64,000 nucleotides of DNA from Pelobacter propionicus DSM 2379 (GTDB taxonomy: Bacteria; Desulfobacterota; Desulfuromonadia; Geobacterales; Pseudopelobacteraceae): positions 1 through 64,000 of the forward strand of contig NC_008609.1 of NCBI RefSeq assembly GCF_000015045.1, written 5' to 3'. This document shows positions 11,640-64,000 of the stretch, piece after piece. Below the pieces are notes generated by a model. That model did not search any database, had not been told where the DNA came from, and saw only the letters and a program-made list of their open reading frames with translations. The first letter of the stretch is position 1, and the number at the start of each line of letters is the position of its first letter. The position numbers and the translations under genes are program-made.

Positions 11640-12665
11640 ATGAGCAAAGACCTAACAAATTCCGCAATTCATCGCCAGAACATTCTCAATAATACGTATG
11701 CCCTGCAGGAAATCGAGAAGGCGACCCATATCACCGGTATTCCCTTTGAGGGAAAGACGGTGGTACTCAAAGAACAAGTAGCCGACTTTTTTGAAGTTTC
11801 CCTTCGTACAGTGGAAAGCTACCTGTCCCGTTTCGAAGCAGAACTGGTTCGCAACGGTTACGAGGTTATCAAGGGTAAACGACTGAAATCTTTAAAATCC
11901 GTCCTGCAGGGAATGGATGTTCCCGAAACATACTTCGGGAACATCGCAAAAGCACCGCAATTAGGCATACTTGACTTCCGCGCTTTTCTAAACCTGGCCA
12001 TGCTGATGGTGGAAAGTGAACGGGCGCGTCTGCTGCGCCAAGCGATCCTTGATATCGTCATCGACACCATTAACCTGCGTACCGGTGGCGGCACCAAGTA
12101 CATCAATCAGCGCGATGAGGATTTTCTGCATTCCTTGTTTGTGGAAGAAAATTACCGCAAGCAGTTTACAGATGCACTGCGAGATTGTGTGGATATGGGC
12201 AATTTGAAGTACCCGATGTATACGGACAAGATTTATGTGAGTATCTTTCGGGAGAAAGCTAAGGAATATCACAAAATCTTGCGACTGCATGAGAAGGATA
12301 GCGTGAGGGATACGTTCTATGCGGAAATTCTTGATCTTGTTGCCTCGTATGAATGCGGATTAGCCGAAATGCTGCGCAGTGCGTCTGGCTCAAAAGGGAG
12401 GGCATTGTCAGTTTTGGAGGTTGATATTCTATTCAAAGAGTTTGAATCGCTACCCCACTGGAAACCGCTGATTGAAAAGGCCCGCAACAAGATGGCTAGC
12501 CGTGATCTGGCTTTTCGGGACGCGCTGCATAACCAATTGCAAGAGTACATAACACCATTGCGGGCGGAAGAGTTTGAACGATTTCTGGGCGAAAAGAGTA
12601 AGGAACTTGCCGAACGATTGGATGACGCCAAAGACGTTATGAAGCGCCTGAAGGAACGGGAATAG
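11640..12665 (+). CDS. DNA-binding protein, probable partner or antitoxin of a Fic/Doc protein
   Basis: This 341-residue protein has a predicted helix-turn-helix at about residues 45-85 (segment VVLKEQVADFFEVSLRTVE), then a mainly helical body ending in a charged helix. It reads like the DNA-binding proteins (RhuM-like and relatives) often encoded just before a Fic/Doc gene. Only two bases separate it from the downstream doc-like gene, so the pair is an operon. Ribosome binding site GAGGAG precedes the ATG. The region is clearly AT-richer than its surroundings, consistent with acquisition by transfer. Antitoxin or autorepressor function is inferred from the context, not shown. Confidence 0.65.
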   Translation: MSKDLTNSAIHRQNILNNTYALQEIEKATHITGIPFEGKTVVLKEQVADFFEVSLRTVESYLSRFEAELVRNGYEVIKGKRLKSLKSVLQGMDVPETYFGNIAKAPQLGILDFRAFLNLAMLMVESERARLLRQAILDIVIDTINLRTGGGTKYINQRDEDFLHSLFVEENYRKQFTDALRDCVDMGNLKYPMYTDKIYVSIFREKAKEYHKILRLHEKDSVRDTFYAEILDLVASYECGLAEMLRSASGSKGRALSVLEVDILFKEFESLPHWKPLIEKARNKMASRDLAFRDALHNQLQEYITPLRAEEFERFLGEKSKELAERLDDAKDVMKRLKERE

Positions 12666-12667
12666 TC

Positions 12668-13120
12668 ATGCCAATCATCTATCTGACACTCGATCAGGCC
12701 ATAGAGGTACATCGCAAAACAGTTGAAGTTAGTGGCGGCGGAGCTTTAGGGCATTTGGAACTGGGTAAGTTGGAAAGTGTTTTGGAGCATATCCAAAATG
12801 ATGACTATTACCCAACATTTGAAGGTAAGCTTACTCACCTGTTTTTCAGTGCCTGCAAGTTTCACTGTTTTCAGGATGGTAACAAAAGGATTGCTATCAC
12901 TCTTTGCGCTCAAATGCTCTTATTAAATGGATATTTATACTGTTCAAGCTCTTTTATTCGTGAAATGGAAAATATCAGTTACCATGTTGCAGCTGGTAAA
13001 ATAGGCAAAGAATTGTTGATGGAGATTATTTCGGCAATAATTGATGGTGAAATGGATTCAGAACCACTTAAACTCAAAATATTAGAAGCAATCTCAAATT
13101 GCACAAGTCTTAGAAACTGA
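12668..13120 (+). CDS. Fic/Doc family protein, probable toxin
   Basis: Fic/Doc proteins transfer AMP or phosphate to target proteins; phage P1 Doc phosphorylates EF-Tu. This 150-residue protein has the complete Fic core motif H-C-F-Q-D-G-N-K-R at residues 66-74, matching HxFx(D/E)GNxR, and the Doc-type short length. The N-terminal motif IYLTLDQAIEVH also resembles Doc. It is the second gene of a two-gene operon with a DNA-binding protein. Since the catalytic His, acidic residue, Asn and Arg are all present, it should be active. Low GC content suggests horizontal acquisition. Whether it AMPylates or phosphorylates cannot be told. Confidence 0.85.
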   Translation: MPIIYLTLDQAIEVHRKTVEVSGGGALGHLELGKLESVLEHIQNDDYYPTFEGKLTHLFFSACKFHCFQDGNKRIAITLCAQMLLLNGYLYCSSSFIREMENISYHVAAGKIGKELLMEIISAIIDGEMDSEPLKLKILEAISNCTSLRN

Positions 13121-13407
13121 TCAGAATATTTTACCTAGTTTAAATAACAGTGTATTTCATTGCACGCAAAAAATTATCGCTATTTTTAGCATGGTTGTCA
13201 GACTGTTCAGGAGCGGAGGAAGCAACTCTACGAACAGAAGGGATACCCCAAGGAGTGGGGCGATAAGCGTCTGCGGGGAGATCCCGCAGGGATATCGAGC
13301 AGCAGAGCGGAACGCCGGTGGGGAGTAGCTCGAATTTCAAGGAACTGGTGCGGAAGAGAGACAAGAAACTTACGTAGAACGGCCATCTCATCCAGGGGAG
13401 ATCTTAC
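13121..13407 (+). pseudogene. Possible decayed coding remnant in the gap before rmuC
   Basis: No intact gene is seen here. In the frame through 13219-13287 the sequence reads ERRKQLYEQKGYPKEWGDKR followed by LRG, which from memory resembles the C-terminal part of phage-type BRO/KilA or DinD-like DNA-binding proteins; after that the reading loses resemblance, as if frameshifted. No start codon with a ribosome binding site is associated. Together with the adjacent Fic/Doc module it may mark an eroded mobile region. The last bases contain AGGGGAG, the ribosome binding site of rmuC. Confidence 0.3.
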
Positions 13408-56277: not shown

Positions 56278-56568
56278 ATGGGTACAAACGGAATTTCCCA
56301 GGAAAGCCTGGTCAGTCAGGTTAAGGATATCGTTGCCAGCGATATCGACGACGAGAAGGTCATGATGAGTATCGAAAAGGGAAACTATTACGGGCTCGAT
56401 CCGGTGGGAAGTCGAGTATGGGAGTTGATGGAGAAGCCCATAAAAGTTTCGGAGCTGATTGGCGCGCTGCTGGGGAGATATGAGGTGGACCGGCAGACCT
56501 GCGAGGAGGACGTGCTGGCGTTTCTCCGGGAACTCCATGAAGCCGGGATAGTGCGGATAGAGGGATAG
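56278..56568 (+). CDS. PqqD-like RiPP recognition element (lasso B1-type)
   Basis: The 96-residue protein has the PqqD/RRE fold of B1 proteins: YYGLDPVGSRVWELMEKP, followed by a helical stretch ending in LAFLRELHEAGIVRIEG. In lasso peptide pathways this protein binds the leader of the precursor and delivers it to the peptidase and cyclase. AAGGAG precedes the ATG. It is separated by four bases from the ATP-grasp gene and is the first gene of the cluster. PqqD domains also occur in other RiPP systems; the downstream cyclase homologue and the precursor at 61814 point to a lasso system. Confidence 0.85.
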   Translation: MGTNGISQESLVSQVKDIVASDIDDEKVMMSIEKGNYYGLDPVGSRVWELMEKPIKVSELIGALLGRYEVDRQTCEEDVLAFLRELHEAGIVRIEG

Positions 56569-56572
56569 CGCC

Positions 56573-57811
56573 ATGTCGTTGGGGCGTATGGCGGTTGGTT
56601 TTCGAAATCACATCCTGCGCCGCGCCTTGCCGCACGGAATCATCAGCTGGCGCTATCTGCTTCCCCGTCCATCGCAGAAAGTGCGTATTCATCGGACGTT
56701 ATGGCTCAGAGGCAGACATCCGGACCTTCAGATTCCGTTCTTCCTGATTGTCGAGTTTCTGTTGTGGATGCGCTGGGTTTTGTTCTCATGCTGGAGATCC
56801 TCCATACGCGCCGTGGCGCATCGGGGCAGGGCTGTTGCCGAACAGGAAGGGATCGGCAGGGTGACGCAACTGGGACACCTTCTGCGGTTGGGGCTTTGTC
56901 ACTGCATCCCACCTGGTGAGGCTTATGCCTTCCGACTCTATCACCGTGAAGCAAGACGGAATTTCTGGGACTATGTCTTTATCCACGAAGTAAAGGCCTT
57001 TCACCGTTGGCGCGGCGCGAGGTCCGGCGAAACGCCGGCGTCTCTGGCCATGCTGCAGGACAAATTCCGCCTCGCCGAATTTCTCGGTGCCCGCGGCGTT
57101 CCCATGGCAACGGCTCTGGGGACTGCTCCCCGTGGCGGCGTCTTCGATCCGACACCCTATCTGCAAACTCGCTCCCGGATCTTTTGCAAGCCCAACCGCG
57201 GCTCCGCCGGGCGCGACGCCTTTGTCATCAAAAGGCGGGGGGTGGATATCGACATATTCGCGGCGAAAAACGGCGTGATGACGAAGCGTTCCAGTCTTGA
57301 TTGCCTGAAGAGGGCCATGGCCAGGGACGACTTTCTGATTCAGCCGTTTCTGGAGAATAATCCCGATTTTGCCGGTTTGTGCCCCACGGAGGATGTCGTT
57401 ACCCTGCGCGTTATTACTGAAATCCATCCGGCGCGCGGCATGGAGTGCTACTGCGCGACCCTGGAGATACCGAATCTATCGAATGGCGCCCTCAAAGGGC
57501 ATATCATGCTGCCCATCGAAGTGTCGTCCGGCCGGATAGCGTCTTTTCCAGGGCGGTTGCCGCCTGAGATCCAGCTGAACCATGACGCCGTATTTGACCG
57601 GATTGGCAATCAAACCGTACCCTTTTGGGACAGCATCATGGAGAGCGCCTTTCGTGCCCATCGGTGCTTTCCCGATATCTACGCCGTTGCCTGGGACTAT
57701 GTCGTAACACCCGCCGGTCCCGTCATGCTGGAGGGGAACACGGGCTGGGGGGCCACAACGCCCCAGACTATGTACCGTGGTCTTCTGCGTGATGAGACCG
57801 GGACAGGATAA
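56573..57811 (+). CDS. ATP-grasp enzyme, sugar-transfer-associated type
   Basis: The 412-residue protein reads as the sugar-transfer-associated ATP-grasp family: a basic N-terminal part, DKFRLAEFLGARGVPMATALG, then a possible ATP-binding lysine in RIFCKPNRGSAGRDAFVIKR, and a final metal-binding segment LEGNTGWGATTP. ATP-grasp enzymes join carboxylates to amines via acylphosphates. In RiPP clusters such enzymes can attach an amino acid or other group. The substrate here is unknown. It overlaps no gene but follows the PqqD protein by four bases, so the two are one operon. Confidence 0.75.
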   Translation: MSLGRMAVGFRNHILRRALPHGIISWRYLLPRPSQKVRIHRTLWLRGRHPDLQIPFFLIVEFLLWMRWVLFSCWRSSIRAVAHRGRAVAEQEGIGRVTQLGHLLRLGLCHCIPPGEAYAFRLYHREARRNFWDYVFIHEVKAFHRWRGARSGETPASLAMLQDKFRLAEFLGARGVPMATALGTAPRGGVFDPTPYLQTRSRIFCKPNRGSAGRDAFVIKRRGVDIDIFAAKNGVMTKRSSLDCLKRAMARDDFLIQPFLENNPDFAGLCPTEDVVTLRVITEIHPARGMECYCATLEIPNLSNGALKGHIMLPIEVSSGRIASFPGRLPPEIQLNHDAVFDRIGNQTVPFWDSIMESAFRAHRCFPDIYAVAWDYVVTPAGPVMLEGNTGWGATTPQTMYRGLLRDETGTG

Positions 57812-57820
57812 CCAATCGTT

Positions 57821-59731
57821 ATGTTCTTCTTCTGCTTTAATCCACAAGGCTCTGCACCCGCCCACCGGATCGATCCGGCCGGTATTATCAAGAGGCTCAT
57901 GCCTTATGCGCCGCCGGACAAGAGCGGTTATCTGGCGGATGCTGAAAACAGCCTGCTGGTGCAGTGCCTGCATTGGAATACCGCCCGCTCCCGGCTGGAG
58001 CCGGTCCCGTTTCATCACGGGCCAAGCGATACAACGGCGGCCTCCTGGGCGCGGCTGGACAACCGGGATGAGCTGGCGAAAAAACTGGACATTGATTCGG
58101 CCGAGCTAGCCCGATGCTGCGACACGGAACTGATCCTGCAGAGTTACCTCAAGTGGGGAGAAGCCTGCGTCGATCACCTGATCGGCGATTTCGTCTTCGT
58201 CATCCATGACCGGAGGAACAGCAGGGTCTTCTGCGGCCGGGATCAGATGGGGGTACGGCCGCTCTACTATTTCTCCTTGGACAACCTGTTCGTCTGTGCA
58301 ACCTCGCTTGCAGCCTTTCGACATCTGAAAGGGGTGACACTGGAGATCGATTCCCAGTGGGTGGCGGAATATCTGGTACAACTCTCCATGAGCTTCGACC
58401 GCACGCCGTACTCGGGGATAAAAAAACTGCCTCCGGCTCACTCTCTGACCGTCACGGCGGAGCGGACCGAACTGCGGCAATATTTCCAGCTCTCCGCCGA
58501 ACCGGAACTGAAGCTAAAGGATTCCCGAGAGTACGTTATTGCCTATCGGGAGCAGATGGAAGAGGCGATACGCTGCCGTCTCGATTCCGACTACCCCATC
58601 GGCTCGGAACTGAGCGGCGGTATCGATTCCTCCACCATCACCGCCTTTGCCGCCCGGTTCTTGGAACAGCCGAACAAGCAGTTGCACACTTTCGGCTTTG
58701 CCTTTGCTGAGCTGGAACCACGCTACATCATGGCCGTTGCCCAGGCGTGTCGCCTTCATAACAACCATATCGTGGCGGCCCGCGAGGCTGAGTCGGAAAA
58801 GGTCCGGAAACGTTCCCTGGCACTGCTTGGTTACCCGGTGGAGCACGGCACCGCAACCCTGCATGAGCCGTTCTACCATCTGGCGGAACAGATTGGCATC
58901 CGCACTCTGTTGTCCGGTTTCGGTGGCGACGAGTTCGGCACCACCATCCACGGCTACCTGGTGCCCATGGGAATGGCGGTGCAGGGACGCTATCGTGAAC
59001 TCTTCAACACCCTGCCGGGTAACCCTTTGTATCGCCTTCTGCGTCTGCTCAAGCTGGAATGGAGACGGCGCAAAACGAATAATTTTAGTTGTTTCGGCCA
59101 GATCGCCGACAACGGCTTTGTTGACGCCTACAAAAGTCGTTGGCCCCACCGGGTGGTACGCGACGAACTGGCGGTGCGCTACGGGCTGGAAGAGCGTTAC
59201 TTTGAGGATGCCCGTTTCGACACGGGGTACACCGACCTAAAGAAGTTTACCCTGGAAAAACGCTGGCAGCCGTTTATGCCCACCCGGATGGAGAACTGCA
59301 GCCTGATGGCTGCCGGACGCAGGATCGACTACCGCTGGCCTCTGCTGGACCTGCGTCTGGTCAGACTGTTTCTGTCGATCCCCTCGCAGGAAAATATTTA
59401 TCGCGGTATGGGACGCTATCTGCACCGCCGGGCAATCGATGGCGTAGTACCGCAACTGGTGGCCTGGAAACAGGGCAAGGACATGGGTATGGTCACGGGC
59501 CAGCGGGAGGATAGTTGGCGTCCTCTGCTCGACCTTGACGTGTCTGAATTACACCCGGCACTGGAAGAGTACATCGATACGGAATTGTTGCGGCGGCAGG
59601 TCAAGCAGTTGCCTTCGCTGGGTAACGGTCCGGGAGATAACAGGAGATTTCAGCTGACCAGGAATATCTCGTCAGCCATAAAACTGAGTGCTTGGTTTAA
59701 GCATCTGGAAACCGGAGAGGGACTGTCATGA
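57821..59731 (+). CDS. Asparagine-synthetase homologue, probable lasso cyclase (macrolactam synthetase)
   Basis: The 636-residue protein has an N-terminal class II glutaminase-like domain (about 1-215) and a C-terminal ATP pyrophosphatase domain with the signature LSGGIDSST at residues 264-272 (S265-G-G-I-D-S270). The catalytic Cys2 of true asparagine synthetase B is missing, since the chain starts MFFFCFN, so ammonia from glutamine is not expected; lasso C proteins likewise use the fold to adenylate the side chain of Glu/Asp for ring closure. It overlaps the downstream methyltransferase by four bases. The PqqD protein, precursor and kinase neighbours support the lasso assignment. Confidence 0.85.
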   Translation: MFFFCFNPQGSAPAHRIDPAGIIKRLMPYAPPDKSGYLADAENSLLVQCLHWNTARSRLEPVPFHHGPSDTTAASWARLDNRDELAKKLDIDSAELARCCDTELILQSYLKWGEACVDHLIGDFVFVIHDRRNSRVFCGRDQMGVRPLYYFSLDNLFVCATSLAAFRHLKGVTLEIDSQWVAEYLVQLSMSFDRTPYSGIKKLPPAHSLTVTAERTELRQYFQLSAEPELKLKDSREYVIAYREQMEEAIRCRLDSDYPIGSELSGGIDSSTITAFAARFLEQPNKQLHTFGFAFAELEPRYIMAVAQACRLHNNHIVAAREAESEKVRKRSLALLGYPVEHGTATLHEPFYHLAEQIGIRTLLSGFGGDEFGTTIHGYLVPMGMAVQGRYRELFNTLPGNPLYRLLRLLKLEWRRRKTNNFSCFGQIADNGFVDAYKSRWPHRVVRDELAVRYGLEERYFEDARFDTGYTDLKKFTLEKRWQPFMPTRMENCSLMAAGRRIDYRWPLLDLRLVRLFLSIPSQENIYRGMGRYLHRRAIDGVVPQLVAWKQGKDMGMVTGQREDSWRPLLDLDVSELHPALEEYIDTELLRRQVKQLPSLGNGPGDNRRFQLTRNISSAIKLSAWFKHLETGEGLS

Positions 59732-60534
59732 AAACCGCGACAGCCGAACGGATGGCCGAATTGTTGGGATTGCCGCTTTTTCGGACCCCGTGGTTTCTCC
59801 CCGAGTACCCGGAAGGGGAATGGGGCGCGTGGCGCATTTCCCGGACCGGCATCGGCATCGACCATGGCTATTACAGCGGGTGTCAGGTCATTGCCGGTAC
59901 GCCGGTCTTACTGAGGCGCAGTCCTGATGATTTTGAACTGTGGGAGCCTTGGATGTCCCTGACCCCCCACGAGATCGAGAGCCAGGAACCGGGCTGCCTC
60001 TGCGCCCATGGCCATACGGTTATCATGGGGCTGGGTATGGGATGGGTCGCCCTGAACGCGGCACTCAATCCGGCTGTTGCGAAGGTTACGGTGGTGGAAC
60101 GAGATAGCGAGGTATTGGAACTGATCGTCGCAACCGGTGTGGTAGGGCAATTGCCCCCGGAGATTGCGGCGAAGATTGAGATTGTCCAGGCTGACGCTCT
60201 GGAGTGGGAACCGACTGATCCGGTTGATTTTCTCTATGCCGATATCTGGTGCCCCGTAGCCGACGCCGCGGCGCTGGGTGACACGCAGCGGATGCAGCAG
60301 AACGTCAAGGCCCGTAAGGTGTATTTCTGGGGCCAGGAGCTGCGGCTCTATACGGCAACAAAGCAGCGCTTCGGTCCACAGGCAGCCCTTACCGCCGCTC
60401 AGCTTGCCGTTTGCGCAGCAGAGGACCTGTGCCTGCCGCTGCTGCTGCCGTGGGGGGATGACTACCCGGCGATGATCGAAACATCGGTGCGGAATCGGCA
60501 GGCCAGGGGATTGCCAATGGAGGAAAAGGCGTAG
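59728..60534 (+). CDS. Class I SAM-dependent methyltransferase (spermidine-synthase fold)
   Basis: The 268-residue protein has the SAM-binding motif VIMGLGMGWVALNAAL, followed by VTVVERDSEVLEL with the acidic residue after strand 2, and IEIVQADALEW with FLYADIW, as in spermidine-synthase-fold enzymes. The start ATG overlaps the stop of the cyclase gene (ATGA), implying coupled translation and a role in the same pathway, maybe methylation of the lasso product or a cofactor. The substrate is unknown. Confidence 0.75.
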   Translation: MKTATAERMAELLGLPLFRTPWFLPEYPEGEWGAWRISRTGIGIDHGYYSGCQVIAGTPVLLRRSPDDFELWEPWMSLTPHEIESQEPGCLCAHGHTVIMGLGMGWVALNAALNPAVAKVTVVERDSEVLELIVATGVVGQLPPEIAAKIEIVQADALEWEPTDPVDFLYADIWCPVADAAALGDTQRMQQNVKARKVYFWGQELRLYTATKQRFGPQAALTAAQLAVCAAEDLCLPLLLPWGDDYPAMIETSVRNRQARGLPMEEKA

Positions 60535-60584: not shown

Positions 60585-60890
60585 CTACCCGAGAAATACA
60601 TTAAACACGGCCTCGTAGTAATAGACATTGGGGTCCGGTGTCCCGGCGTGTGTGGCGGAGATGTGGATCAGCTCCGGGCCGAAGCCTTCGGCAGCCATGA
60701 GATAGGAGTCGTCAGGCAAGGCCGGCGTTCCCGGAGGTGGATCGAAGTTCAGGGTAAAGCTCTCATAGCGGGATGCTGTCTGCTGGGTGCTGATATTCGC
60801 CAGCCTCAGCTCCAGAACGTGGTTGCCGTCGAGATGTACGGTGAATATTTTCCCCACCAGTGATTCAAAAAGTGTCTTGCTGAATTTCAT
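60585..60890 (-). CDS. DUF6916 family protein, associated with tail-collar proteins
   Basis: The 101-residue protein begins FSKTLFESLVGKIFTVHLDG and ends in YEAVFNVFLG, which agrees with the DUF6916 family as I remember it. The function is unknown. It is on the minus strand and divergent from the tail-collar gene at 61100, a pairing consistent with shared control. AAGGAGG stands 11 bases before the ATG. Confidence 0.65.
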   Translation of the reverse strand: MKFSKTLFESLVGKIFTVHLDGNHVLELRLANISTQQTASRYESFTLNFDPPPGTPALPDDSYLMAAEGFGPELIHISATHAGTPDPNVYYYEAVFNVFLG

Positions 60891-61099: not shown

Positions 61100-61729
61100 A
61101 TGGATTGCTATCTGGGGATGGTCATGACGTTTGCGTACAACTGGGCACCAGTGGGGTTTGCGGCCTGTAACGGCCAAACGACGCAAATCATGCAAAATCA
61201 AGCGCTTTATTCGCTCTTGGGGGTTGCGTTCGGCGGTAACGGCAGTACCTCCTTCAATCTGCCGGACCTGCGCGGACGGACGCCGGTGCATTTCGGCCAG
61301 GGGACGAACCTGACCCCCCGCACCTTTGCGGCGCAATTCGGACAGGAGAACGGAACCCTGACCGTAGCGAATCTTCCTCCCCACAATCACGCCATCGGCG
61401 AGAAAACCGCGGGCCAGACCGTAACGGCGACGGCCGCAGCCACGGTCAATGCCGGTGATGTACAGGGTTCGCTCAATAAACCGCAGAATACCGCATATTG
61501 GGCAAAGGGGTGGGATGCGGCTGATTCGTCAGTGCTTTCCAACTACACCACCACAAAAAACGTCACCATGGCTTCCGATGCGGTACAGGTAACAGTGACT
61601 CCCGCCTTCAATGCATCGAACCTGAACGTCGCCAACACCGGCGGCGGCGGCGCCTTCCCGCTGGCCCAGCCGTCGCTGGCTCTGAACTTCTGCATCTGCA
61701 CGTCAGGTCTTTACCCGTCCAGGTCGTGA
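61100..61729 (+). CDS. Phage tail-collar domain protein, microcystin-dependent-protein-like
   Basis: The 209-residue protein has the collar-domain pattern: MDCYLGMVMTFAYNWAPVGF, ACNGQTTQIMQNQALYSLLG, GGNGSTSFNLPDLRGRTPVH, and a variable Ala/Thr/Val-rich middle before a final LNFCICTSGLYPSRS. In most relatives this end reads with hydrophobic residues instead of the two cysteines. Family members come from phage tails and from MdpB-like bacterial proteins. ATG 61100 is preceded by AAGGAGA. There are no other phage structural genes, so it is not a prophage. Confidence 0.8.
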   Translation: MDCYLGMVMTFAYNWAPVGFAACNGQTTQIMQNQALYSLLGVAFGGNGSTSFNLPDLRGRTPVHFGQGTNLTPRTFAAQFGQENGTLTVANLPPHNHAIGEKTAGQTVTATAAATVNAGDVQGSLNKPQNTAYWAKGWDAADSSVLSNYTTTKNVTMASDAVQVTVTPAFNASNLNVANTGGGGAFPLAQPSLALNFCICTSGLYPSRS

Positions 61730-61813
61730 AAACGTATCACTGCACGGTTCGGGCTCCGTTGTGAGCGGAGTCCGAACCACTGATTCAGGAAAAAAACATA
61801 GGGGGAAATGGCC

Positions 61814-61984
61814 ATGGAACATCTGATCGACGAAACCGGCAGCTGCCGGCTGGATGAAAAGAACAGCCCAGGAGCAGACCGTGCTGCGTGGAGCGCGCCG
61901 CACCTGCGGCGTATCGCAACCCGGGACACCGCAGGCAAGTCAAGCCCTGGCGGCGAGTCCGGCATTACAACCGGACTATCTTAA
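61814..61984 (+). CDS. Candidate lasso peptide precursor (paeninodin-like)
   Basis: A 56-codon frame with an AGGGGG ribosome binding site eight bases before ATG 61814 (an alternative ATG at 61808 is too close to it). The leader (residues 1-40) ends in WSAPHLRRIATRDTA, which fits the paeninodin-type W-x2-P-x-L...T-x pattern: W26, P29, L31 and T39 at -2. The predicted core is GKSSPGGESGITTGLS (16 residues): Gly1 amine to Glu8 side chain would form an eight-residue macrolactam, with a tail of eight residues and a C-terminal Ser. Paeninodin-type kinases phosphorylate such a terminal Ser, and an HPrK-like gene lies at 63704. The frame is too short for many gene callers. Confidence 0.75.
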   Translation: MEHLIDETGSCRLDEKNSPGADRAAWSAPHLRRIATRDTAGKSSPGGESGITTGLS

Positions 61985-62016: not shown

Positions 62017-62700
62017 ATGAACCACAGCGAAACCGACTTTCAGGGCGGAATCGAGCATTACAAGCTGGGACTGTTGCCCCAGGCAAAGACGCTGCTGAAG
62101 AGCTGCGTCACCCGGGACCCGCGTCATGCCGAGGCCCACAACCTGCTGGGGATCGTCTGCTATCAGCGGGAGGAGTTCGGCGAGTCCCTGGCTTGGCTGC
62201 GGCGCGCCATCGCCCTGCGGCCCCACGAACCCAACTACTGCAACAACGCCGGGGTGACGGCCCATGCCCTGCGGCTCTACGAAGAGGCGCGCACCTTTTT
62301 CCTGCAAGCCATGGAGCTGAGCCCTGATTATCACGATCCCTACAACAACCTGGGCAATCTGCTGCGGGACCTGTTCCGTTTTGATGAGGCGGTCCTGCAT
62401 TTCAAACAGGCCCTGGCTCTGAAGCCTGATTTCAGCGAGGCCTGCTTCAACCTGGCCATGACCCTGGAACAGAAGGGTCACACCATTGAGGCGATCTTCT
62501 ACCTGCAACAGACCGTGAAGATGGCGCCGGACCACCTCCAGGCCCACCAGCATCTGGCCCGGCTGCTGCCGAAGCAGCGGCGCGGCGACGAGGCCGGCGA
62601 CCACGCCCGCCAGGCCGTATACCTGCAACCGCGTCAGAAAGTCTTCTTCAAAGACACCCCGGTGTGGTTGGCCCCGGACTATCGGGGGCTGTTATCGTGA
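62017..62700 (+). CDS. Tetratricopeptide repeat protein
   Basis: The 227-residue protein consists of about five TPR units of 34 residues, such as AEAHNLLGIVCYQREEFGES and HDPYNNLGNLLRDLFRFDEA, with the usual small and large residue positions. TPRs mediate protein interactions. There is no signal peptide. Its stop overlaps the start of the formyltransferase gene by four bases, so the two are coupled. Its role in the cluster is unknown. The ribosome binding site is weak; upstream extension of the frame is possible but lacks support. Confidence 0.8.
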   Translation: MNHSETDFQGGIEHYKLGLLPQAKTLLKSCVTRDPRHAEAHNLLGIVCYQREEFGESLAWLRRAIALRPHEPNYCNNAGVTAHALRLYEEARTFFLQAMELSPDYHDPYNNLGNLLRDLFRFDEAVLHFKQALALKPDFSEACFNLAMTLEQKGHTIEAIFYLQQTVKMAPDHLQAHQHLARLLPKQRRGDEAGDHARQAVYLQPRQKVFFKDTPVWLAPDYRGLLS

Positions 62701-63632
62701 GGATTGCGGTTCTGTGCAGCGGCAGCGTACTGCAACCGGTTCTGGAGGCGCTCTACAGCCAGGGGTTGCTGGCCGGCGTGGCCGTGCCAGCGGCACCGGC
62801 AGTCGAAGATCCGAACCTGGCGCTGGAGACTGTGCTGCGTCAGGCCCGGGTATCCTGCCTGCGGGTGGATAACGGCGACCTGACCGGGCAGATGGCTCCC
62901 TGGTTGCGCTCGCTTGCGGCGGATGCGCTCTGCTGCATGGGGTTTCCCCGCAAACTTCCGGCTGACCTCCTTACCATGCCGCCACTGGGCTGTTATAACT
63001 TCCATGGCGGCCCTCTCCCCCAGTATCGCGGACCGGACCCGGTTTTCTGGCAGATCAGAAACCGGGAGGTGGCCGGTGCCATCACCGTCCACCGCATGAC
63101 TCCCCGGATCGACTCCGGTGCCATCGCCCATGAGGCGCACCTGCCGATAGGGACGGATGATACCTATGGTCTCTGGATGCAGAGGCTGGGTGGAGCGCTT
63201 CCCCGGGTGATGATCGAATTCGTCCAGCAGTTGGCGATCCATGGCGCGGCAGTGCCGTTACGGGAACAGGATCCGGAAACGGGCCGCTATTTCCCCCGCC
63301 CCACCGATGCGGACCGCACCATCGACTGGTCATGGGGCGCATCCGCCATCGATGCCCTGGTGCGGGCCTGCAACCCGGTCTACGGCGGCGCCCTGACCAC
63401 ACTGCACGGGGTGCCGGTGCGTTTGCTGGAGGTTTCTCCCCTGCCTGCCCAGGCAGGGGGGGAGAGTACCTCCGGCACGGTTGTTACGGCGGATGCTGCG
63501 GAGGGGCTGCGCGTTGCCTGCGGTACAGGCGAATTGCTCCGGCTGGAGCTGTTGTACGGTATGGAAGGTTTTTTCAGCGGCCCTCGTCTGGCGCGTATTT
63601 TTGGTTTGAAACCGGGGCAGCGGTTGGCATGA
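62697..63632 (+). CDS. Formyltransferase-family protein (methionyl-tRNA formyltransferase-like)
   Basis: The 311-residue protein starts at GTG 62697, overlapping the TPR gene stop. It has the formyltransferase active-site motifs: NFHGGPLPQYRGPDP with the Asn and His of the catalytic core, and TVHRMTPRIDSGAI, where the Asp is conserved. A C-terminal domain (about 200-300) resembles the OB-fold of Fmt. It is not the housekeeping Fmt, as def is not adjacent. Relatives formylate sugar amines or amino acids. Its target in this cluster is unknown. Confidence 0.8.
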   Translation: MRIAVLCSGSVLQPVLEALYSQGLLAGVAVPAAPAVEDPNLALETVLRQARVSCLRVDNGDLTGQMAPWLRSLAADALCCMGFPRKLPADLLTMPPLGCYNFHGGPLPQYRGPDPVFWQIRNREVAGAITVHRMTPRIDSGAIAHEAHLPIGTDDTYGLWMQRLGGALPRVMIEFVQQLAIHGAAVPLREQDPETGRYFPRPTDADRTIDWSWGASAIDALVRACNPVYGGALTTLHGVPVRLLEVSPLPAQAGGESTSGTVVTADAAEGLRVACGTGELLRLELLYGMEGFFSGPRLARIFGLKPGQRLA

Positions 63633-63703: not shown

Positions 63704-64000
63704 ATGACCAACCAGTATCGAGTCTTTGGCCTGACCGTTTCTTCGCCCCTGCCGCTTCCGGCTTTAGCCGTGCCATCAGGTATATCCTCCCCAGCGGATA
63801 TCGTCATATCCTACGGCGACACTCCGGCTGAATTGAGCGCCCCACAGGTGCGGGGGATTCGTTTTCAGGCTGCGCCGGGGGAGTTTCTCCTGCGGGTGGA
63901 TGACGTTGCCCGCTTTTATGTGCAGGGCGGATACCGCATCACCATTACCCCGGAAAACGGTGCCCATGACAACGATCTATTGCCGTTTTTGATGGGGTCG
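63704..64000 (+). CDS. HPr-kinase-like protein, N-terminal part (cut by window end)
   Basis: The first 99 codons of a frame that runs off the window. It begins MTNQYRVFGLTVSSPLPLPA and has the N-terminal beta-rich region (DDVARFYVQGGYRITITPENGA) seen in the HPrK-like kinases that accompany lasso peptide and PqqD/asparagine-synthetase clusters. The Walker A part is not yet reached, so the assignment rests on the N-terminal pattern and context. If right, it would phosphorylate the precursor's terminal Ser. It follows the formyltransferase after 71 bases. Confidence 0.7.
   Translation, partial: MTNQYRVFGLTVSSPLPLPALAVPSGISSPADIVISYGDTPAELSAPQVRGIRFQAAPGEFLLRVDDVARFYVQGGYRITITPENGAHDNDLLPFLMGS

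Follow-up and report, generated by a model that had tools for sequence, protein, structure and literature searches.

Towards its right-hand end the window, by which the whole analysed stretch of 64,000 nucleotides from Pelobacter propionicus DSM 2379 is meant, holds a run of genes on one strand that begins with the gene of a PqqD-like protein at 56278 and continues beyond the window end; among the genes assigned to this cluster, only that of a DUF6916 protein lies on the opposite strand. Between the genes of a phage tail collar domain protein and of a TPR protein, the run encloses a small open reading frame (61814-61984, plus strand), the direct translation of which gives 56 residues, MEHLIDETGSCRLDEKNSPGADRAAWSAPHLRRIATRDTAGKSSPGGESGITTGLS, followed by a stop codon. 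The features of the cluster inside the window are as follows, the identities being those to the corresponding proteins of two syntenic clusters described below.

56278-56568, plus strand: B1, PqqD-type RiPP recognition element (NF033536 lasso_PqqD_Bac, 103 bits, cut-off 80; PF05402, 80.6 bits)
56573-57811, plus strand: ATP-grasp protein of the sugar-transfer associated type (PF14397, 87.8 bits; 53-54% identical in both syntenic clusters)
57821-59731, plus strand: C, predicted lasso macrolactam cyclase, asparagine-synthetase type (PF00733, 130.6 bits, cut-off 21; 66-69% in the syntenic clusters)
59728-60534, plus strand: conserved protein with weak methyltransferase-like similarity (sub-threshold matches only, RrnaAD 12.6 bits; 66% in both syntenic clusters)
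60585-60890, minus strand: DUF6916 protein (PF21880, 55.5 bits; 65-71% in the syntenic clusters)
61100-61729, plus strand: phage tail collar domain protein, directly 5' of the putative precursor (PF07484, 86 bits; same place in both syntenic clusters)
61800-61805, plus strand: Shine-Dalgarno-like AGGGGG (direct reading)
61814-61984, plus strand: putative lasso peptide precursor (A), with residues 1-40 as leader and residues 41-56 as predicted core, GKSSPGGESGITTGLS
62017-62700, plus strand: TPR protein (PF07719, 99.5 bits, and other TPR models; 75-77% in the syntenic clusters)
62697-63632, plus strand: formyltransferase, Fmt/ArnA-like (PF00551, 58.4 bits; PF02911, 54.8 bits)
63704-64000, plus strand: start of K, an HprK-like kinase that runs on to 64609 outside the window (L004:7705-8610; HprK_rel_A, 48.5 bits, cut-off 200)

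Past the window end the same numbering is kept (window coordinate = L004 coordinate + 55999), and the cluster continues with the following genes.

63704-64609: the kinase, in full
64606-65442: sulfotransferase (PF00685, 101.7 bits, cut-off 22)
65504-66286: second sulfotransferase-like protein, below the Pfam cut-off
end at 66773, start uncertain (ATG at 66309): B2 leader peptidase, transglutaminase-like (NF033537, 108.8 bits, cut-off 33; PF13471, 105.3 bits)
66825-67577: TauE family protein
67574-69394: ABC transporter
69391-70665: NTP_transf_5 protein (NTP transferase)
70793-71698: CysD
71698-73614: CysN-CysC

The best NCBIfam match of the predicted cyclase is to lass_lactam_cya (346 bits), a score below the cut-off of 525 that counts against a narrow assignment, and the kinase likewise falls short of the thresholds set for kinase models. 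In the kinase, H114, K135, D152 and D153 are invariant in all six aligned sequences and were equated, by their order, with the His-Lys-Asp-Asp motif of lasso kinases given in an excerpt of PMC9266682. The formyltransferase has in common with the Fmt chain 1fmt, on alignment, an N-x-H and a D, which we take to be the catalytic residues. The collar and DUF6916 proteins precede the precursor in all three close clusters, and collar matches are also found in six of 80 more distant loci (the best 80 of at least 542 relatives, see below) and in L035 and L036.

The small reading frame and its relatives

The first-pass annotation of this stretch had credited the frame with a good ribosome binding site, and an AGGGGG does stand 8 nt ahead of the ATG at 61814; the in-frame ATG at 61808 was rejected as a start, the AGGGGG being too near to it. 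The residues on which the same annotation had built its reading (W26-x2-P29-x-L31, T39, and Gly1 and Glu8 of the core) are all found at those positions in the translation. The leader motif WxxPxL reads W26-S-A-P-H-L31, T39 is W+13, and T39, G41 and E48 (core position 8) agree with the rule for lasso precursors, i.e. Thr at -2, a core starting with Gly, Ala, Ser or Cys, and Asp or Glu at 7-9.

It had also been held that such features are hard to obtain by chance in one small frame, a claim of which only part could be kept. A pattern made of [YWFH]-x2-P-x-[LIVMF], T-x-[GASC] and an acid at 7-9 occurs 0.68 times per window in 200 dinucleotide shuffles, so that the motif alone is weak evidence; the real window has two matches, namely the precursor frame and a 30-aa frame at 12115-12207. 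When a terminal Ser is added, the figure is 0.025 per shuffle (five of the 200 shuffles with one). No Pfam or NCBIfam model matches the frame at E≤1, and what raises it above chance is its position and conservation.

A search with the cyclase across 141 genomes of the order, among them that of the window, gave a match at E≤1e-40 in eight; besides the window's own, close cyclases (66-69% identical) are found in G076 and G068. Homologous frames at the same place in related genomes, which had been proposed as a check, were indeed found, since two syntenic clusters with a homologous precursor at the corresponding place are present in the 140 other genomes of the order. Both contain B1, ATP-grasp, cyclase, methyltransferase-like, DUF6916, collar, TPR and formyltransferase proteins, along with kinase, sulfotransferase, B2, ABC transporter and NTP transferase, the cluster proteins being 53-77% identical and the gene order partly changed. 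B2, which lies 2.3 kb past the window end, is 70-72% identical in both, and the second sulfotransferase-like gene is 64% identical in L034 and 63%, over a partial cover and upstream of B1, in L033. TauE, CysD and CysN-CysC have no match in the L033 and L034 stretches, which extend ~6.3 and 4.9 kb beyond the NTP transferase gene.

By tblastn, the homologous precursor frames follow the collar gene at L033:6314-6481 (plus strand; MNEPTNKNILHENAKTDVTPRTWSAPRLRRIPAANTSGSGKPVFGGESGVTTGLS) and at L034:13394-13546 (minus strand; MNDFTSENENKQEQLRIWNAPRLRRIEASTTAGKHYNTSETGLHINGPAS), and both keep the W, P and L, the Thr at W+13, Gly-Lys and the terminal Ser. The conservation that had been anticipated for the leader and ring positions thus holds in both relatives for W, P, L, Thr, Gly and Ser; that of Glu8, counted by placing Thr at -2, holds in L034 and fails in L033, which has Glu10. 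The codons of the window frame and of L033 were compared over two gap-free blocks (27 codons including the stop), which leave aside the parts that do not align, namely the leader's N-terminal half and the central ring residues. Differences at codon positions 1, 2 and 3 number 8, 4 and 18, with 14 codons differing synonymously (the stop included) and seven non-synonymously, and the positional bias is therefore the pattern of a conserved protein-coding frame. As the sole query, the 56-aa precursor gives matches at E≤1 in 111 of the 141 genomes of the order, nearly all noise, the credible ones besides the window's own being only those in G076 (E 3e-7) and G068 (E 0.024, by place). Among 395 sampled genomes of the phylum, a search at E≤1e-80 recovers that of the window alone; as G068 and G076 would pass this threshold, they are evidently absent from the sample.

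That 61814-61984 is a chance frame lying between the collar and TPR genes, as the 0.68 motif matches per shuffled window (terminal Ser apart) and the lack of any family-model match might suggest, is rejected on synteny and the codon pattern; the syntenic homologues, the third-position bias and the conserved C-terminus leave to it a very small probability. In L034, an extra frame, small-methyltransferase-like by eye, lies between precursor and kinase (12800-13370, minus strand).

Placement among paeninodin-like clusters

From its sequence and surroundings, the frame at 61814-61984 is read, with a probability of roughly 0.9, as coding for the precursor (A) of a paeninodin-like lasso peptide of class II, and the predicted product is likely to be phosphorylated. 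The PqqD/asparagine-synthetase cluster in which the first-pass annotation had placed it is recovered by the models of B1 (NF033536) and of the cyclase (PF00733), and the B2 peptidase, the absence of which beyond the window would, by the annotation, have refuted its reading, is present there, well above the cut-off of NF033537. In an excerpt of PMC13381572, WxxP is described as nearly invariant among paeninodin-like precursors, and HprK kinases and NTP transferases as their typical partners; the label of paeninodin type given earlier therefore stands for a cluster with a WxxP leader, an HprK-like kinase, a discrete B1, an NTP transferase and an ABC exporter.

In the proposed pathway, the PqqD-like B1 would bind the leader via W26-x2-P29-x-L31, and the HprK-like kinase would phosphorylate the C-terminal Ser of the linear precursor, as the kinase of paeninodin relatives is described to do in the excerpt of PMC9266682. 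B2 would then cleave between Ala40 and Gly41, with Thr39 at -2, the cyclase would join Gly41 to the side chain of Glu48 to form an eight-residue ring, and the ABC transporter would export the product. These enzymatic steps and the core boundary are predicted from genes, families, conservation and synteny, and any role in the pathway of the NTP transferase, the formyltransferase and the ATP-grasp protein is to be taken as equally putative.

Among known systems, paeninodin (Paenibacillus dendritiformis) and other clusters with HprK kinases are alike in the WxxP leader, the C-terminal Ser, the split B1/B2, the cyclase and the exporter, and also in the HprK-like kinase with His-Lys-Asp-Asp (excerpts of PMC8498205, PMC9266682 and PMC13381572). 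Unlike that of paeninodin, the window cluster has a sulfotransferase after the kinase, PAPS-forming genes, and formyltransferase, ATP-grasp, TPR, collar and DUF6916 genes. The pseudomycoidin cluster (Bacillus pseudomycoides) is similar in combining a kinase with a nucleotidyltransferase-type protein (excerpts of PMC8498205 and PMC9266682); a hexose on the phosphate is reported there.

The cluster itself has very probably been listed before. In an excerpt of PMC4289311, Ppro_0050 of Pelobacter propionicus DSM 2379 is tabulated as a lasso cyclase, with a citation of Maksimov 2012, and the window cluster is very probably that of Ppro_0050, because the position of the cyclase, ~58 kb from the start of the chromosome, agrees with a locus number close to 50. 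The same excerpt calls precursor annotation not conclusive in most cases and mentions HPr kinase and sulfotransferase as unexplained extras in some lasso clusters; the precursor may already have been named in Maksimov 2012 or in one Zhu 2016 paper. The gene and the cluster are, thus, of a known kind, and it is the predicted sulfation, with the PAPS-forming genes, that makes of them a testable variant.

The kinase-sulfotransferase pair and a possible supply of PAPS

The sulfotransferase gene lies directly behind that of the kinase, and CysD and CysN-CysC are found at the cluster end. The PAPS-binding motifs YPKSGNTW, RNPLDxAxS and RxGxxGxW are invariant in all five aligned sulfotransferases. 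By sequence profile the closest solved chains are the sulfotransferases of glycopeptide antibiotics Teg12 and Teg14 (E 7e-24 to 3e-22), with StaL further down, all of which act on non-ribosomal glycopeptides. Over the genome, the cluster sulfotransferase is the only match of PF00685 and the one, sub-threshold, match of PF13469, which does not recover the protein at 65504-66286; the predicted structure of the latter (mean pLDDT 39.9, from 2 sequences) is too poor for use.

CysD is single-copy and is the only match of PF01507 in the genome (all 14 control genomes give a match), no PAPS/APS reductase of this family being found, and APS kinase is matched in CysN-CysC only. A search of the genome for aprA gives nothing over the cut-off, but it says less than that with PF01507, because no control genome passes the aprA cut-off either. 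As the genome-wide profile searches yield neither a further PF00685 protein nor a PF01507 reductase, PAPS has no evident consumer outside the cluster. APS kinases of G068 (two) and G076 (one) are on contigs other than the cluster contig.

In the extended pathway, CysD and CysN-CysC would supply PAPS, from which the sulfotransferase would transfer sulfate to the peptide or to a group placed on it. That the lasso peptide is also sulfated, as the genomic context suggests, is a tentative proposal, given here a little under an even chance. The core contains no Tyr, and the C-terminal Ser is, by eye, the only hydroxyl at a matching place in four close precursors (the fourth is described below), which makes the C-terminus a candidate site; sulfation may occur on the phosphorylated C-terminus or beside it. 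A gain of 80 Da, which the first-pass annotation had taken as the sign of phosphate, does not single it out when a sulfotransferase is present in the cluster, since sulfate (+79.9568) and phosphate (+79.9663) are 9.5 mDa apart.

The wider distribution of the pair was surveyed by scanning the sulfotransferase alignment over named genomes and taking the best 80 of at least 542 confirmed relatives, with the gene content of the loci determined by tblastn (E≤1e-4). Among these best 80, a kinase match is found in 76 loci, a B1-like one in 65 and B2 in 49, together with cyclase-like matches in 54 and NTP transferase matches in 44, both of which may at this threshold include other proteins of those superfamilies. 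B1, B2 and cyclase occur together in 37 of the 80 and none of the three in seven, six of these being on incomplete contigs and the other, L106 (Legionella erythra), full length and also without kinase; the remaining loci without a kinase match are L051 and L060 (incomplete contigs) and L100. In 72 of the 80, the kinase immediately precedes the sulfotransferase on the same strand, and in 65 of these the extrapolated gap between the two is at most 30 nt. Within the locus, 13 of the 80 contain an APS kinase (>60 bits), a raw count, and two contain CysD, the gene order in L067 being kinase, sulfotransferase, CysD, CysN-CysC. Formyltransferase, TPR, methyltransferase-like, DUF6916 and second sulfotransferase proteins have no match in these 80 loci. 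The record titles name Bacteroidetes, Bacillota, Chloroflexi, Acidobacteria, Verrucomicrobia, Proteobacteria, Desulfobacteria and others; one of the loci, L116, and the L035 locus of the order evidently represent a single contig (100% matches), and proteins of L035 were among the queries. Another lasso-type cluster of the order has two tandem HprK-like kinases directly 5' of the sulfotransferase (L036:15791-17472).

A strict precursor pattern was run on 88 loci, i.e. these 80 and eight of the order, the window's own included. It returned 37 frames in 31 loci, 25 of which end in Ser, a residue not demanded by the pattern, as against 6-11 matches, 0-2 of them ending in Ser, in five shuffled sets. 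Several of the 12 frames without terminal Ser resemble chance matches; the pattern misses L033, and further misses are expected from incomplete contigs. In a Bacillota MAG (L070:17701-18243), three consecutive small precursor-like frames, whose leaders are nearly identical and whose cores are rich in Tyr and acids, lie near kinase, CysD and CysN-CysC genes.

The window peptide may be one of a broad multi-phylum class of sulfated, phosphorylated lasso peptides with a coupled kinase-sulfotransferase pair and PAPS sometimes made on site, the close subfamily tolerating Thr at -4 or having rings of more than nine residues; slightly less than half of the probability is assigned to this view. A sizeable minority share goes to an ordinary phosphorylated paeninodin-like peptide, with the sulfotransferase and the PAPS genes modifying another target, such as a sugar or a surface polymer. 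The formyltransferase, the 'sugar-transfer associated' ATP-grasp protein and the NTP transferase could act on a sugar, CysD and CysN-CysC adjoin the cluster in the window's genome only among the three close clusters, and the second sulfotransferase-like protein falls below the cut-off. Against a target other than the peptide, the sulfotransferase stands just behind a lasso-type kinase in 72 of the best 80 loci, among them L042, a Desulfobacteraceae MAG whose 10-kb contig gives no match to formyltransferase or ATP-grasp.

Should the lasso peptide be sulfated, sulfation would join the known lasso modifications and would point to a widespread family of peptide sulfotransferases paired with a kinase. 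No report of a sulfated lasso peptide was found in the open-access literature at the level of titles and abstract starts, and the available portions of PMC13352647 and PMC9266682, by word search, and of PMC12325987, PMC9484694 and PMC10978704 hold nothing on such peptides; an excerpt of PMC8498205 mentions a sulfotransferase gene, without function, in some Firmicute lasso clusters. The strain offers a clean test system, with, by profile, one PF00685 sulfotransferase, one APS kinase, CysD, no PF01507 reductase and one small precursor, the masses of which are predicted.

Register of the core in the relatives

A fourth, more distant precursor candidate is found at L042:4340-4534 and ends WNTPSIRKISTVVTSMPGKIAPSEDANSGSS. 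Because the pattern used to select it requires an aromatic residue, Pro and a hydrophobic residue, agreement at these positions is not independent evidence; the pattern set no condition on the candidate's place between cyclase and kinase, on Gly-Lys, on the terminal Ser or on the Thr at W+13. In the candidate W and P are retained, Leu is replaced by Ile, and Gly-Lys and Ser are present, as is the Thr at W+13, so that both this Thr and the terminal Ser are common to the window frame, L033, L034 and L042. The stretch L042:1794-10033 is a reduced cluster of B1, cyclase, precursor candidate, kinase, sulfotransferase, B2, ABC transporter and NTP transferase, the contig giving no collar match either, and hints at the minimal gene set of the subfamily. 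Formylation of Lys by the formyltransferase suggested itself, since a single Lys lies beside Gly in every one of the four close cores; it is not claimed, as L042 has Gly-Lys and no formyltransferase match in its 10-kb contig.

Between Thr and Gly-Lys, L033 (T-S-G-S-G-K) and L042 (T-S-M-P-G-K) have two extra residues, and a strict placement of Thr at -2 therefore puts the acid at 9-10 in these two: Glu10 in L033, and Glu9/Asp10 in L042, with Met at position 1. With the same rule, the core of the window frame and of L034 starts from Gly-Lys and has Glu at 8. If the core is instead counted from Gly-Lys in all four, an acid is at 8 in each (E7/D8 in L042) and Thr falls at -4 in two. The boundary might obey one of two fixed rules, a view regarded as less likely than not: either the core always starts from Gly-Lys (acid at 8, Thr at -2 or -4), or Thr is always at -2 (rings of nine to ten residues in L033 and L042). 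The acid at 8 in the Gly-Lys register and the Thr at W+13, each in four of four precursors, speak for such regularity, but L033 comes from an assembly of ~90 contigs and L042 from a MAG, with one sequence each, and the question is limited to the relatives. For the window frame, the predicted core of the paeninodin-like precursor is identical under both rules.

The relatives in which Thr is shifted could show how strict the leader peptidase is in setting its cleavage site. As a further observation, a 9.5-kb stretch of L041 (1371-10856), which belongs to the 30.7-kb replicon of the window's genome (G000 contig C2), shares 98% identity with a plasmid of Providencia, the counterpart there being annotated with a Tn3-family transposase and efflux genes.
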